From: a virus
Direction: 5' to 3' (one strand)
DNA: 38,620 nucleotides
IMG/VR virus record: IMGVR_UViG_3300025141_012030
Location: 1-38,620 of that record
The notes under the pieces are model-generated. The model did not search any database. It had not been told where the DNA came from and saw only the letters and a list, made by a program, of their open reading frames with translations. How positions within the stretch are numbered: the stretch's first letter is position 1; every line of letters starts with the position of its first letter. This document shows positions 3,944 to 38,618 of the stretch, one piece after another. The translations under genes were made by a program, and so were the position numbers.

Positions 3944-5830
3944 GTGCTCCACGCGGGATGTCTCATACCACCGCCAGTAACCGTTAGGACTGAGGAGCAA
4001 TTTGGCAAGGCTATGGAAGAGCTGCGTGACGTCGAATGGATAGCGTACGATACGGAAACTACCGGTATCCAGCGACCCAAAGACGTTGCGCGCTTCCTGG
4101 CCCTGTCGGATGGGGTCAAGCGCTACTGTATCGGCCCAGAATTTATACAGCGGCCGGAAATAGCGGAGCTCATGGAGGACCCGAGTAAAAAGTTGATTGC
4201 GCATGTGGCAAACTTCGATGCGTGGATGATGCGCAACGTAGGGACCCACGTGTACAAGACCGCGGGCAGAACCTATGACACCGCCGTAATGCACCTGTTG
4301 CACGATGACCTCTCGCCACACAGTCTCGACTTCGTTGCTGCGCAGATCTGTAACATTTACAAGTACTCATTTACCACAGCGTTCCCCGAGGTAAAGCGTG
4401 GGGAGACACCTGGAGAGGTGCTCGATAGGGTCTGGGAAACTGACCCCGAGCGAGTGAGCCACTACGCCTCCCTGGATGCCTACGCTACCTACAAGGTGTT
4501 TATCCGCTTACGGGAGTTACTGCGCGCGGAAACTACATTGCCGGGGATGACCCTTTGGGATTACTACACCACGTACGAGGTCCCGTTCACGGATGTTTTG
4601 CTGGACATGGAACTCACCGGGGTGCTGATCGACAAGAAGAACTTGCTGGGTCTGGTCCCGCAATTGGAGCAGAAGCAGCATGACTTGAGCCGTTGGTTTA
4701 CTAAGGAGGCGGGAACTATTATCCGCCCGACGGGGAAGAAGGTCACCGAGTTCTTCTACGAAACCCTCAAGCTGCCCCCCATCAAGTACTCCAAGGAGAC
4801 GAACAAACCCTCCATGGATAAGGAGACTTTGAAGGTATGGGCTGCAGCCGGGTACGAACACGCAGCCAAGCTCCTGGAGTGGCGGCAAACAGAGGACATG
4901 CTCTCTCGGTATGTGGGTAACCTCTGGGACCTGGTGGACCATAAGACTGACCGTTTGCACACCACCTTCAACCAGCACGTGGTTAAGACCGGTCGTCTTT
5001 CGTCAGCTAGCCCAAACCTCCAGAACCAGCCTAAGGAGTTCCGCTCCATCTTTATCCCGGGCCCTGGAAAGCGTTTCCTGGTCATGGACTATGGCCAGGT
5101 TGAGTGGCGCATTGCTGCGCACCTCTCAGGTGATGTGCGAATGATTGCGGACATTAGGGCAGGGAAAGATGCCCACTCTAGCACCGCGGCGATCATGTTT
5201 GATGTTCCCTACGAAGAGGTCATGGAGGCTAAGAAGGTAGACGACGACGCCGATCTTACTCCACGCCAACAAGAGCTGCTGAAGCTACGCTCCTTTGCTA
5301 AGACTTTGAACTTCGGGATCCTATACGGAGAAGGTCCGCACAAGCTATCGCAGCAACTTGGGATAACGAAGGATGAAGCGAAGGGTCTACTGAAGAAGTT
5401 CCGGATCACCTACCCGCAGCTCCACCAGTACTTCCGGGACACTATCAACCTGGCTACCGCGATTGGCCACTGCCAAACGCTACTGGGCCGTCCTCGTCGG
5501 TTACCGAACCTTAGGTCCACCAATCGCGCACTTGCCGCAGGGGACCAACGAAAGGCCAAGAATAGCCCCATTCAGGGGTCAGCGTCCGACCTTATTAAGG
5601 CTGCGATGTTGAACCTCCACAAGAATTCCTTTTTCACCTCGGGGCAGGCCAAAATACTCTTGCAAGTTCACGATGAACTTGTTATCCAATTAGATGCGCA
5701 CTTAGAACATGACGAGCAGTTTAACCGCGAAGTAAATTGGCATATGCGACACCCTCTCGGGGTCGATACGTTGGTGGTCAATCTGACTATCGATAAGTCG
5801 TATGCTGACAACTGGAAGGAGGGTAAGTAA
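3944..5830 (+). CDS. polA: Family A DNA polymerase with 3'-5' exonuclease domain
   Basis: This 628-residue replicative polymerase resembles the Klenow part of DNA polymerase I. The proofreading domain shows AYDTETTG (Exo I), AHVANFD (Exo II) and YASLD (Exo III). The polymerase domain shows TGRLSS followed by SPNLQNQP, motif A MDYGQVEWR with D382, motif B beginning at K453 (KTLNFGILYG), and motif C HDE at 576-578. All catalytic residues are present and no 5'-nuclease domain is attached. The start is GTG 3944, 5 bases after AGGAGG at 3933-3938. Its stop overlaps the start of the next gene (TAATG at 5828-5832). It is the only polymerase in the window and sits among helicase, primase and recombinase genes, so it is probably the phage's own replicase. 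Confidence 0.95.
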   Translation: MLHAGCLIPPPVTVRTEEQFGKAMEELRDVEWIAYDTETTGIQRPKDVARFLALSDGVKRYCIGPEFIQRPEIAELMEDPSKKLIAHVANFDAWMMRNVGTHVYKTAGRTYDTAVMHLLHDDLSPHSLDFVAAQICNIYKYSFTTAFPEVKRGETPGEVLDRVWETDPERVSHYASLDAYATYKVFIRLRELLRAETTLPGMTLWDYYTTYEVPFTDVLLDMELTGVLIDKKNLLGLVPQLEQKQHDLSRWFTKEAGTIIRPTGKKVTEFFYETLKLPPIKYSKETNKPSMDKETLKVWAAAGYEHAAKLLEWRQTEDMLSRYVGNLWDLVDHKTDRLHTTFNQHVVKTGRLSSASPNLQNQPKEFRSIFIPGPGKRFLVMDYGQVEWRIAAHLSGDVRMIADIRAGKDAHSSTAAIMFDVPYEEVMEAKKVDDDADLTPRQQELLKLRSFAKTLNFGILYGEGPHKLSQQLGITKDEAKGLLKKFRITYPQLHQYFRDTINLATAIGHCQTLLGRPRRLPNLRSTNRALAAGDQRKAKNSPIQGSASDLIKAAMLNLHKNSFFTSGQAKILLQVHDELVIQLDAHLEHDEQFNREVNWHMRHPLGVDTLVVNLTIDKSYADNWKEGK

Positions 5831-6003
5831 TGGAAAAGTATGGGGTCCACACAGACCCGAAGACTAAGACCGCGAGCACAGAAGATACGTGCCCTGACTG
5901 CGGTGGGAAAACTGAGAACCACGGTGCGGTGATTAAGTGCGCCGGGGCCTGTGGCACCAAACCCTTCGAGCAGGAAACCGATGGCGAAGAAAAAGAAGGC
6001 TAA
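5830..6003 (+). CDS. Small zinc-ribbon protein, 57 residues
   Basis: A short frame starts at ATG 5830-5832, sharing an A with the polymerase stop, and ends at TAA 6001-6003. The product begins MEKYGVHTDPKTKTASTED and carries CPDCGGK followed about 20 residues later by CAGACG, two CxxC-type knuckles of a zinc ribbon. Its tail is acidic (FEQETDGEEKEG). It overlaps the start of the recombinase gene by 23 bases in another frame. The zinc-binding pattern and seamless coupling on both sides argue that it is real. The function is unknown; small zinc ribbons in such places often bind nucleic acids or a polymerase. Confidence 0.65.
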   Translation: MEKYGVHTDPKTKTASTEDTCPDCGGKTENHGAVIKCAGACGTKPFEQETDGEEKEG

Positions 6004-10375: not shown

Positions 10376-10381
10376 GAGAGG

Positions 10382-10404
10382 GAGGGGCGCAAGCCCCTCT
10401 TTTT
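10382..10404 (+). terminator. Rho-independent terminator of the replication operon
   Basis: A perfect 7-bp stem GAGGGGC/GCCCCTC (10382-10388 with 10393-10399) encloses a GCAA tetraloop and is followed by five T residues at 10400-10404. It lies 6 bases after the last plus-strand stop and just before the stop of the converging minus-strand spike gene at 10410. Read from the minus strand the stem is the same but is followed by CCTCTCTT, a poorer U-tract, so it may work weakly in both directions. Confidence 0.9.
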
Positions 10405-20600: not shown

Positions 20601-23060
20601 AAAGAAGCTGTACCAGTCTAAGAAGACCTTCGAGTCAGTGGCATACCGAATAGGGACGTAAGAGTAGTAAATGGTGTTGTTCACTGTGTACTGGAGCTTC
20701 GCCAACCCGTTTAGCGGTGGCGTCTCCTCGATCTCGTAGTAAGGGGTGCCCCACATCTGGTAGGCGGTCTCGACTTGCTCGAGGATGGACCATTCCAGGA
20801 ACTTCCCGGTTACCGGCAATCCCGTCCAATCGTAGGTTTTGGTGCAGTAAGGTGCGTTGTTGTAGGGGTGCTCTACAGGTTCAGCGTTGATGCCCCAGGG
20901 GATATTCTCCTCGGCAACCCAAGCACCGGCCCCACCGCATGTCACAAACCCGAAAACAGGATCCACCAAAAGGATTGGGAAGATGCCACTATTGCCTGGA
21001 AGAGCACCGCGAAGGTGCAAGTTGTCCCCAGGGTTTACCCCGGCAAACGGGGCAGAGTCTACTACGAAGTCGGCAGAAGCCAAGGTACACTCCCCACCTA
21101 GCAGGATCGTGGCAGTCGTGCTATCCGTAGCACTTAGGGAGCTGATGTAATAAGAGCTCGTCCCTATTTGCAGAATCTTAGCGGCGCTGGTGGCAGGAAG
21201 AACACCGTACGCTGTGTGGAACTCAGAGGTGGTGTTCGCCAGCCCAGAGGAACCACTGCCGAGAGTATCGTATGCCGAATGCTCGGTAGCGAGTAACAGG
21301 TACTCCGCAGTCCCTGTAGTGGGCAGCTTCTGGGCAATAAGGTCGTCGAACATCCCGTCGGCGTTAGAGAACAACGAGTAAGCCCCGGTCTCTACCAGAG
21401 AGTAGTACTCCGCGCCCCCGGCAAGTAGGAAGGTCTGGGTAGTCGTGTCCGTATCGTCATCATCCTGCAAAGTGGCAGATATCGCCGAGTAATACTCGGG
21501 GCCCGTGAGATCCCCCGTCGCGTCTATCAGCGTCGGGAAGCCGACCCACTTACGTTGGTACTTCACAGGAATATCACGAAGTGATTTTGCGTAGTCATCT
21601 TGCCAGGCACGTATCGTGTCGCCGGACATCACTTGCATGAAGGAAGACCATATCTTCGAAAACACCGAGCGCTCTTCCCGAGACACCCGGGACCAGAAGT
21701 CAGGTAAGGTGTCCCAGATGAACTCTGCATCCGGAACAGTCTCGAGCAGTGCGTCGACCGGAGATACCTCGAGAGTATGTAAGACCTGGGCGCTGGTAAA
21801 GATGCCATCGCTAACCGCCAACCCAATAACGTACGTCCCACTAACCATGGGGATGAAGCCGGGGTTAGGGTTAGTCGAATCCGAACCACCGGAAAAGCTC
21901 GTCAACGCAGTCAGGGGAACGACGTCGGTCCCGTTACCAGACGTAAGCTCCGCCGAAAAGACAGCTGAGATTGCAGCCGGCTGCCCATACTTGGTCGCGT
22001 CATTAATCATGAACACGAACTCAGATAACGTGGTCGCGACTGGGACCGTTACCGTAAAAGCATACCCGGTAAGGTCGAAGTCGAGGGTTCCATTCAGGAC
22101 CTCTATTGTGTACAGGTTCCCCTCGGTGCCTTTGTACGAGGTGCTCACGGTCACTGTGCTCAGCCAATTGGTAAGGGCTACAGTCGCTGGCACCAGACCG
22201 CCGAGGATAGGGGTGGCACCAGCGGGAACGGTCTCCAACTCCCAGTCGTAGGTGAGCGCCTTACCTTCAGGATCGTAACTCGAAGTACCATTCAACTGGA
22301 GAGCTCGCCCTGCAATAGAAGCTGCTGGTGCATCTATTTGTGCAACGGGGATGACGTTCGCGGCAAGCTGTAGACTACTCAGCCGCAGGGACTCCAACAC
22401 CGCGGTTGCTCCAGTACAGTAGAAATCGGCGACATTCGCGATAGGACCAGTGACTTGGGGCGCTGTCACCACCCAGGCAGCGTTACCTATCTCAGCGCCA
22501 GCTGCATCCTCAGACGTTGCGTAGACTGTGACGTCGCCGCTGGTACCGTCGGATACCAGGTGGAGGCGGAGGTGGAAGGGATACTGAAATAGGTCAGGGG
22601 ATCCCGAGAGGATCTCCACTGCTGCTGATGGATCGTTCTGCGGGAGGTACCCGATTCCCTCTTGCGATACGAAAAGACGGAGCCCATAAGACTGCGCGTC
22701 AAAGACGCCTACACCAATCTTGCCCGCGGTGAAAGTAGCCGGCAGCCAGGCTTGCGCGTCAACGTAAAACTCGACCTCGTAGGTGTACTGCGTTGGGACT
22801 GCTGTGGACAGGACCAGCTGTGCCGGGTCCCCGGCGCCACCGGAAACCAGCTGCAGGAAATTGCTCGTGGGAACTAAGTATGGCTGAATTGTACCAGTGT
22901 GGTATATTAGGGGTCCGTAGTTGGCAATGATGCCGTCGGCGGGAGTCGTTTGATCATTAGGGAAAGCATCCCCGGCTGGTGTCAGGTTGGCTAACCGGTA
23001 CCAGTCAAAGATGTCATACCCGGCTCCGCCGTTAGCCTTAGTTGATATGGGGATCGCCAT
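17664..23060 (-). CDS. Giant tail/baseplate protein with PKD domain, 1798 residues
   Basis: ATG 23060 is preceded by TGAGGAG at 8 bases; a GTG three codons earlier touches that site. Residues about 17-232 look like a jelly-roll (LamG-like) domain. A PKD-type Ig domain begins at about 240 (QLNGTSSYDPEGKALTYDWE) and ends at about 432 (GTYVIGLAVSDG); it is interrupted by an inserted beta domain of roughly 108 residues. A helical stretch at 440-510 (LPDFWSRVSREERSVFSKIW) resembles helical starts of baseplate proteins such as gpI. A long beta-rich region follows, ending in two tandem modules at 1564-1737. Position after J suggests an enlarged gpI-like or fibre-anchoring protein; this is inference. 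Confidence 0.78.
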   Translation of the reverse strand: MAIPISTKANGGAGYDIFDWYRLANLTPAGDAFPNDQTTPADGIIANYGPLIYHTGTIQPYLVPTSNFLQLVSGGAGDPAQLVLSTAVPTQYTYEVEFYVDAQAWLPATFTAGKIGVGVFDAQSYGLRLFVSQEGIGYLPQNDPSAAVEILSGSPDLFQYPFHLRLHLVSDGTSGDVTVYATSEDAAGAEIGNAAWVVTAPQVTGPIANVADFYCTGATAVLESLRLSSLQLAANVIPVAQIDAPAASIAGRALQLNGTSSYDPEGKALTYDWELETVPAGATPILGGLVPATVALTNWLSTVTVSTSYKGTEGNLYTIEVLNGTLDFDLTGYAFTVTVPVATTLSEFVFMINDATKYGQPAAISAVFSAELTSGNGTDVVPLTALTSFSGGSDSTNPNPGFIPMVSGTYVIGLAVSDGIFTSAQVLHTLEVSPVDALLETVPDAEFIWDTLPDFWSRVSREERSVFSKIWSSFMQVMSGDTIRAWQDDYAKSLRDIPVKYQRKWVGFPTLIDATGDLTGPEYYSAISATLQDDDDTDTTTQTFLLAGGAEYYSLVETGAYSLFSNADGMFDDLIAQKLPTTGTAEYLLLATEHSAYDTLGSGSSGLANTTSEFHTAYGVLPATSAAKILQIGTSSYYISSLSATDSTTATILLGGECTLASADFVVDSAPFAGVNPGDNLHLRGALPGNSGIFPILLVDPVFGFVTCGGAGAWVAEENIPWGINAEPVEHPYNNAPYCTKTYDWTGLPVTGKFLEWSILEQVETAYQMWGTPYYEIEETPPLNGLAKLQYTVNNTIYYSYVPIRYATDSKVFLDWYSFFRDLTSLDTGDIYRSGFSGGLGRALVANVDGNPNYPNLFATVSELAPTLLGYIATSYVPIDSSILEIPLLKDTIVGDLTYEFPADFTLPTIDTQQYIAWDTTAVTFTWSRTVVSGLTVDPGVIYLANGDALKVYNFDATLGTAAVDYEPPTGGSYTGWHPTVFKAATDVPEIEWAEVVYFDNDETISTNFGAVVGMPKVAQNNYKSDVTALWFCLWNGPTLANLEIAANAIMDRALFLSEGTILSIDATYNASEGRIFLQDSATGLVHAYAYDKTAGIAINPETDVALAVGDTVERYWPINGGITVDDYKSDPDWFDRYLVGQDIVKRYFYFTLKIASGTGVTAAQIDQLLAQIDLLKPQYTDVIFVMVVEQKDDVDVVATHTISATVRMADSPAQAVYTDATPTVELTPAAIATTAIAFPPRYSALPMQNLEVYESCYLPGHLDDYSGDGSWHPNAPGVVLHDSGATTALFAVGPAIRITDGGAAWGDLTGYFARFPTMGPYGLWAEIDSSTPTTFTYTRDATWLPYVDPPAATAYEIYTPTSAVVKVNQLDSDEDHSKSVTWLELTLTPSAPHGFTPNEWVVGATQGRARVLYVQNLLHPENHPKSFILVQRRPEDDTVQVEMGLLSELDFVVGDTITGGTSGETAVVDSIRTYPDYIFGVDAGLMRPDSHPGPTTSFYAPTAAILPTVDYGLTLDDVEPFYDPILIANPAPAVALPNLVPSFDYGQYWWLDTPLTDDYSEGYDGTFATNATFTSPTGGDSLVNYYGAAPGDLLVITGAATAANNGSFTIVSNTPGAPGVLGFAAASFTAPDANDGAIRWHIVSKFAAIDYWNDVGPTNADDGTVVSAAEFSSVSGAANSYNGVAPGDWLIMVDATNPANNAWHTILGVGATLTFAPATLTSPDASSGNIRWCCLPSWYTNTWTPVKVDYVHRDAVVYRYTLAGDRMPNITHGHTWFRTDQWYQEPWVVAIIVSPAV
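17850..18371 (-). repeat. Two tandem 76-82-residue beta modules at the C-terminus of the giant tail protein
   Basis: Residues 1564-1645 and 1662-1737 align with each other: DGT at the start, then APGDLLVI or APGDWLIM, a NNG or NNA turn, a hydrophobic strand ending in FAxA, TAPDA or TSPDA, and finally IRW. The same module with lower similarity appears about 800-1000 residues earlier in this protein (about 20890-21072, FAGVNPGDNLHL) and in the adjacent J-like protein. Confidence 0.75.
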
Positions 23061-23289
23061 GAAAAACACTCCTCAAAAGTTTGCGCCGGAAGAACTCTAT
23101 TCCCTGGTTGCCGAAGCAGAAGATATCCTCAGCCCTCTTGTCGACCAGGCCATGTTGTCTCCCAAACCATGCCCGAAGTGCGACTCCAAGATGGTTTGTG
23201 TAGTAGACCCCGACAACCCTTTTACCTCAGGAAAGCTCATCCAGAATTTCATCCTCCAGTGCCCAGCGTGCTGGACGCGTTCGTCTTAG
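23059..23289 (+). CDS. Small zinc-ribbon protein encoded antisense within the structural operon, 76 residues
   Basis: ATG 23059 is preceded by GGGGA at 23049-23053. The product begins MKNTPQKFAPEELYSLVAEA, a helical acidic segment, followed by a zinc ribbon with CPKC at residues 37-40 and CPAC near the end, separated by about 30 residues; the frame closes at TAG 23287. It runs opposite to every other gene in the right 28 kb. Its first codon and that of the 1798-residue protein overlap on one CATG (23058-23061), and its stop and that of the J-like gene overlap on TTAG (23286-23289), so it fills the space between two genes exactly. No convincing promoter is visible. The function is unknown; it could bind nucleic acid or a host protein. 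Confidence 0.72.
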   Translation: MKNTPQKFAPEELYSLVAEAEDILSPLVDQAMLSPKPCPKCDSKMVCVVDPDNPFTSGKLIQNFILQCPACWTRSS

Positions 23290-37747: not shown

Positions 37748-37776
37748 ATTGTAACAACCCCCACGCGGCCACGCAA
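37748..37776 (-). promoter_or_regulatory. Candidate promoter at the head of the long structural operon
   Basis: On the minus strand TTGCGT (37771-37776) and TACAAT (37748-37753) are 17 bases apart, and TG lies one base before the -10 box (TGTTACAAT, an extended -10). The -10 box matches the consensus in 5 of 6 positions, the -35 in 3 of 6. It lies in the 62-base gap 37719-37780, with the predicted start of transcription about 23 bases before ATG 37718. The layout matches the other candidate at 29600-29628. Confidence 0.45.
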
Positions 37777-37780
37777 TGTA

Positions 37781-37990
37781 CTACGCCTGGGGCTCCTCCC
37801 CAAGTAGAGAAACGATGTTCTCATCAATAGCGGCCTCCCACCCAGTGAGTGTGTCGGCGAACGGCGAAAATGCCTCCGCCTCCTTCAACTCCTGGAGCCA
37901 GGTGGATAGCGTCTGCACCCGGGCCTCTTCCTTATCTACATGCTCATTTAGCAGCTGCTGTAGCTGTAAAACTTTGTCTTTGAGACTCAT
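37781..37990 (-). CDS. Small coiled-coil protein, 69 residues
   Basis: ATG 37990 is preceded by GAGG at 5 bases; an in-frame GTG two codons earlier has no spacing to a site. Residues 1-40 are a continuous charged helix with leucine heptads (LKDKVLQLQQLLNEHV), then a short Trp-containing helical end. It overlaps the end of the sigma-like gene by 47 bases in another frame. Likely roles include a partner of the sigma-like factor or a small assembly factor. Neither is shown by the sequence. Confidence 0.65.
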   Translation of the reverse strand: MSLKDKVLQLQQLLNEHVDKEEARVQTLSTWLQELKEAEAFSPFADTLTGWEAAIDENIVSLLGEEPQA

Positions 37991-38618
37991 AAGCACCTCG
38001 TGGTGATGTGCTATCCACGTATGACTTCAGCTTCTTCGCTATACTCATTCTGATGCGGTAGACCTTATGCTGCGGCAACTTGAGCTTACCAGCCAGCACC
38101 TGGACATCCGTTATATGCTCGCGCCCGAGGCCGGTCAGGTAACGGTAAACTTCCTGCTCCTCATCCTTCAACTCGTAGAGGAAGAGTTTCAGCAATTCCT
38201 TCTCCGACGCCGGCATAACCGCGGTGGGGTCCGATTCAAACTTCGAAGTAGAGAGGTCCTTTCGAAGTTGGTTGTCCATCTTGATAACCTTAGCTACCGG
38301 CCACTTCAACCGCTCAGCGAGCTCCGCATCCGTAGGGGCTCTTCCCTTCTCCTCGCCCAAATCCGCGCGAGCGGTCTCGAATGTGCGAATCAAACGGATG
38401 TCCTCCTCCGGGATACGCGCAGTGTTCTGGTAGGTCATGATAAAGCGCTGGGCTTTCTTCATGTACCAAACCAAAGCAGTGCTTAGCGCCGCGCCCCTTG
38501 TCGGATCATAGGCCTTTAGCCCGGCAATTAGATGCTTAATGTATTCTGCACGGATGGCCTCTGGGGGGATCTGGACACGGTTGGTATACACAGATGCCTG
38601 CTTGTTCACCAGGGGCAT
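37944..38618 (-). CDS. Phage sigma-70-like factor, start possibly beyond the window
   Basis: At least 224 residues are visible, from an ATG at 38618, 2 bases from the window edge. Residues about 30-72 match sigma region 2.2-2.4 (LKAYDPTRGAALSTALVWYM then QNTARIPEE), residues 92-112 match region 3 (GRAPTDAELAERLKW), and 141-202 match region 4, with a helix-turn-helix at about 170-196 (LAGKLKLPQHKVYRIRMSIA). Region 2.1, the main polymerase contact, is almost absent, so the true start is probably further upstream outside the window. It would direct host RNA polymerase to phage promoters. Its place ahead of the structural genes suggests control of late transcription. Confidence 0.75.
   Translation of the reverse strand: MPLVNKQASVYTNRVQIPPEAIRAEYIKHLIAGLKAYDPTRGAALSTALVWYMKKAQRFIMTYQNTARIPEEDIRLIRTFETARADLGEEKGRAPTDAELAERLKWPVAKVIKMDNQLRKDLSTSKFESDPTAVMPASEKELLKLFLYELKDEEQEVYRYLTGLGREHITDVQVLAGKLKLPQHKVYRIRMSIAKKLKSYVDSTSPRGAYESQRQSFTATAAAK

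Follow-up and report, generated by a model that had tools for sequence, protein, structure and literature searches.

The plus-strand frame at 23059-23289 of our window (the whole 38,620-base virus record, itself a fragment) is, judged from comparison with related genomes, a true protein gene that is under selection in a set of tailed phages of roughly 180-200 kb. It encodes 76 aa with the cysteine pairs CPKC and CPAC (translation MKNTPQKFAPEELYSLVAEAEDILSPLVDQAMLSPKPCPKCDSKMVCVVDPDNPFTSGKLIQNFILQCPACWTRSS) and lies against the direction of the two structural genes on either side. By the same comparison the gene is old and selected, i.e., neither a chance frame nor a recent insertion. For its role we favor, with a probability of about 0.42, a small zinc-ribbon protein that would act as an adaptor or regulator and be expressed from a plus-strand transcript of its own while the late operon is quiet, such that the two programmes would tend to be mutually exclusive; here, timing and partner are purely what we infer. 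The comparison set comprises three genomes, all metagenomic contigs: the window, the nearer relative G001 (IMGVR_UViG_3300009008_000004, 182,719 bases; reached via J) and the more distant G002 (IMGVR_UViG_3300035210_000132, 199,134 bases; reached via a conserved fragment of T). That is, both relatives were found through the neighboring J and T proteins. Feature coordinates are collected in Table 1.

Table 1. Features of the zinc-ribbon gene and its surroundings, in window coordinates unless stated otherwise.
Feature	Position	Strand	Remark
Zinc-ribbon-like protein gene	23059..23289	+	76 aa, 8.4 kDa, pI 4.8 (calculated)
Predicted N-terminal helix, CPKC...CPAC after it	residues ~10-31 of the 76-aa protein		AlphaFold helix ~9-31
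CATG, start codons of T and zinc-ribbon gene both within	23058..23061	.	kept in G001, not in G002
TTAG, 4-bp convergent stop overlap, TAG (+) / TAA (-)	23286..23289	.	common to 3/3 phages
GGGGA, possible weak Shine-Dalgarno of zinc-ribbon gene	23049..23053	+	within T codons 2-4; kept in G001; inference
GAGGAG, likely Shine-Dalgarno of T	23069..23074	-	within zinc-ribbon codons 4-6; from sequence; inference
26-nt block in T, no change window vs. G001	23008..23033	.	possible overlapping signal
Tail/baseplate gene T, 1798 aa	17664..23060	-	ATG overlaps zinc-ribbon ATG
Baseplate J-like gene (J), 1767 aa	23286..28589	-	Baseplate_J 27.4 bits, cut-off 21.1; stop overlaps zinc-ribbon stop
Phage sigma-factor gene (phrog_351), upstream end of structural block	37944..38618	-	85% identical in G001
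Terminator hairpin, convergent junction of plus-strand replication operon and minus-strand structural block	10376..10404	.	similar hairpin at the same place in G001
Second zinc-ribbon-like ORF	5830-6003	+	G001 114104-114280; G002 about 22476-22637

The left 10 kb of the window form a plus-strand replication module (helicase, primase, DNA polymerase, UvsX-like protein, Cas4-like exonuclease), while the right 28 kb form a minus-strand structural block with a phage sigma-factor gene at its upstream end. Right of 10.4 kb, the zinc-ribbon gene is the only plus-strand gene, as the original prediction had stated, and the strong terminator at the end of the replication operon is 12.6 kb away from it. 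A second plus-strand candidate on this side (37776-38006) was rejected because it covers a conserved minus-strand gene (37781-37996). The latter is small, 77% identical in G001, and overlaps the end of the sigma-factor gene.

Frame, cysteine motifs and coordinates are exactly as originally claimed, and the proposed start overlap with T and stop overlap with J are both present in the sequence. Neither overlap is special. Four-base convergent stop overlaps are also found elsewhere (three further called pairs in G001, one in G002), and four tetramers permit them, TTAG among these (PMC2174442). An in-frame start further upstream (ATG at 23044) was discarded; it is without a Shine-Dalgarno sequence and reads GTG in G001, so that an ATG is not found in both phages.

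On its own, an open 76-codon frame is weak evidence for a gene, since its chance from a given start is about 5% by base composition and the window holds 206 ORFs of at least 50 aa, antisense ORFs this long being common. It is the conservation across phages that identifies 23059-23289 as a gene. The entire window is colinear with G001, where J is 62-64% identical, and the J/T joint of G001 carries on the opposite strand a 76-aa homolog (71% identical) with both overlaps the same. The zinc-ribbon frame is the only one open at the joint in both phages. Differences between the two genes number 16/9/46 at codon positions 1/2/3 (chi-square p 8e-8), with a dN of 0.18 at saturated dS compared to higher dN values for J (0.28) and T (0.29). 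The Shine-Dalgarno sequence of T lies in the same bases as the codons of MKNTPQ and may account for part of the conservation of this stretch between window and G001. Given a frame that is kept in three phages with coding-type substitutions, we regard a chance open frame without product as extremely improbable, however common antisense ORFs of this length are in the window.

The third phage is much more diverged. G002 has the replication-then-structural layout in common with the window at low identity (about 25-31% for the J-like protein). Directly after J, it carries on the opposite strand an 86-aa frame (MIFKPMPKEEILKALRGHEDIIDRAVKEHEAFFKRLSCPSCGGEVMPVVNPKRLFRESSVLPSYLGKCRSCGVEFEPYTGIQVTLR), again with the TTAG stop overlap. 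When a profile was built from just the two nearer proteins, this joint ORF ranked first among 4,675 G002 frames (E 1.7e-5, next 0.49), and the four paired cysteines (C38, C41, C68, C71) are invariant in the three homologs. The search for homologs with retained cysteines was thus successful in both relatives, and the comparison bears out the earlier claim in that the gene is real, keeps its paired cysteines and runs antisense where two structural genes meet. In each of the three phages (for G002 by simple ORF calls) the counter-strand gene stands alone in a structural block of ~28 kb.

On the T side, the neighbor in G002 is different (a 298-aa gene past a 52-nt gap), so that the conserved unit is J plus the zinc-ribbon gene in convergent orientation. 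This would fit a helper or assembly factor of the J-like baseplate protein that is kept beside J for functional linkage, since the J side of the joint and the 4-bp stop overlap are conserved in 3/3 phages and the T side is not. But the gene is transcribed against J, such that co-transcription provides no coupling, and overlaps of this kind recur in these genomes; we therefore deem a J-specific factor improbable.

An inserted accessory gene (moron) had been among the explanations first offered, with an empty joint in relatives as its expected mark. Such empty joints are confined to very distant phages, namely Bacillus phage G (next gene 24 nt after J) and Vibrio phage D181 (next gene 5 nt after J), both with 23-27% identity in the J domain; the gene after J in D181 shows weak similarity to T. 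In G001 and G002 the joint is filled. Since both relatives with the joint carry the gene, its gain would date back at least to the divergence from the 199-kb phage, where gain in an ancestor of the three phages and loss elsewhere would fit the data alike. Morons are independent transcription units set among structural genes of tailed phages, and like them it is a small opposite-strand gene in such a place. In contrast to morons, it is old and syntenic in three related phages, and it was not found elsewhere as mobile cargo: the protein alone as query found nothing or only G001 again, and the phage collection holds no matching sequence. With regard to other queries, the sigma factor and a 239-aa gene returned G001 alone, and J found nothing among genome contigs. 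Despite the counter-strand position and the empty joints of phage G and D181, a recent insertion is very unlikely given the gene's presence in both closer relatives, down to the low J identity of G002, and since the scans used here found no promoter or terminator of its own.

For the protein, searches of Pfam, NCBIfam, PHROG, PADLOC and PDB gave no match at a curated or credible level, and weak sub-threshold matches of the homologs are to generic zinc ribbons. A PDB profile match to a cytochrome trimer (E 1.6e-4) was rejected as three weak repeats summed over haem-type CxxC. As in zinc ribbons, two CxxC pairs are conserved among the three homologs. In the structure prediction originally called for, two AlphaFold models (pLDDT 59-62) agree on the N-terminal helix, while the beta-hairpin fold of a zinc ribbon is not resolved in the cysteine part (pLDDT about 41-61), a low confidence that is to be expected with a shallow alignment and no metal. 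A helix at the N-terminus and, after it, a zinc site of four cysteines are strongly indicated, and the protein probably binds zinc.

Known ribbon families describe the protein poorly. Lar, FmdB and other small zinc ribbons (TIGR03655, TIGR02605, PF09723) are likewise small proteins with two CxxC pairs, but the matches all score under the curated cut-offs and align to only a small part of the protein, with its acidic N-terminal helix and VDPxNPF segment left unaccounted for. A Lar-like protein that would be made early for host takeover or anti-restriction is rather doubtful. It could draw on sub-threshold matches of the G001 homolog to phrog_599 (E 0.014) and of the G002 homolog to TIGR03655 (E 0.016), but the latter reaches 15.5 bits against a curated cut-off of 39.6 with no match for the window protein, FmdB, rubrerythrin-like and other ribbons match equally well or better, and PADLOC gives no support. 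All three homologs also match the C-terminal stretch of phrog_1467 (about 137-202 of 226), which spans helix and ribbon, with E-values of only 0.03-0.25; this model matches in 11/14 control genomes and is thus not specific. Apart from the gene at the joint, 3/3 phages have a second small zinc-ribbon-like ORF (M(E/D)KYGV..., CPxC...CG), flanked by the genes for DNA polymerase and UvsX.

Next, we consider signals for transcription. A scan for sigma-70-like consensus, with other promoter types outside its reach, revealed no promoter near the zinc-ribbon gene, and no terminator was found downstream of it. In G001, the motif GGTATAAG is strand-biased (27 plus vs. 2 minus), is mostly found upstream of plus-strand nonstructural genes, often as CGGGTATAAG, and probably serves as an early or middle promoter; the bias recurs in G002 (8 to 1). 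Upstream of the zinc-ribbon gene, GGTATAAG is absent in the window and G001, and none was seen in the G002 upstream sequence examined. Both nearer phages share TGTGGTATATT ~155 nt upstream of the gene; this is a possible promoter, but chance alone would be expected to give matches this short. At the two joints (start and stop), RNA folding is not stronger than in shuffled sequences, and Rfam has no match in the window. The minus-strand structural block of G001 also holds a plus-strand unit (100829-101252; L012:829-1252) with its own GGTATAAG, a Shine-Dalgarno sequence, two tiny ORFs (acidic, hydrophobic) and a terminator-like hairpin; this unit is moron-like, unlike the zinc-ribbon gene.

The first 20 codons of T are among its most codon-conserved stretches (13/17 vs. 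40%, binomial p 0.0025, not corrected for the choice of region). A coding extension upstream of the zinc-ribbon start was ruled out as the cause, since the wobble positions of the T frame and the zinc-ribbon frame face each other at the 5' end of T. This pattern suggests an overlapping nucleotide-level signal. The minus strand of the unchanged 26-nt block in T contains CGGGTATGAC, which is near the promoter motif CGGGTATAAG, possibly by chance.

Codon conservation in T beyond the need of its protein is also what would be expected if cis-antisense control were the main function, i.e., if the plus-strand transcript or a transcriptional collision shut the J-T joint early and the protein were secondary. 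The joint position and orientation kept in three phages agree with this, and Pseudomonas phage PAK_P3 provides a precedent with early antisense RNAs, mostly in the structural region and nearly all within genes (PMC4933390). If expressed, the zinc-ribbon gene would likewise be transcribed against late structural genes, but we deal here with a conserved protein gene at a joint, known from sequence alone, rather than with antisense RNAs. We consider such control unlikely as the main function, since selection is clearly on the protein (codon-position pattern, cysteines) and the different T-side neighbor in G002 argues against the T joint as the conserved target.

The zinc-ribbon adaptor or regulator that we prefer would bind protein or nucleic acid. 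It would not be part of the virion, since co-transcription with the late genes is impossible for it, and its expression would come from a separate plus-strand transcript while the late operon is quiet. This transcript would be antisense to the ribosome-binding site of T and, if running past the stop, also to the 3' end of J, such that either programme would tend to shut out the other; the exclusion would act as a secondary damping of leaky late transcription. Early expression exclusive of late transcription, as had been proposed originally, is plausible, with the early antisense RNAs of PAK_P3 as a precedent (PMC4933390). A built-in early/late switch, in which transcription of the conserved antisense coding gene would mask the J-T joint and its zinc-ribbon product would regulate transcription in trans, is quite improbable.

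The zinc-ribbon protein would represent a new protein family beyond those in Pfam, NCBIfam and PHROGs. Conserved synteny is usually put down to co-transcription. Here, a gene without possible co-transcription with its neighbors has stayed in place and in reverse orientation as neighboring proteins diverged to about 25-31% identity, which suggests that the antisense position itself may matter.
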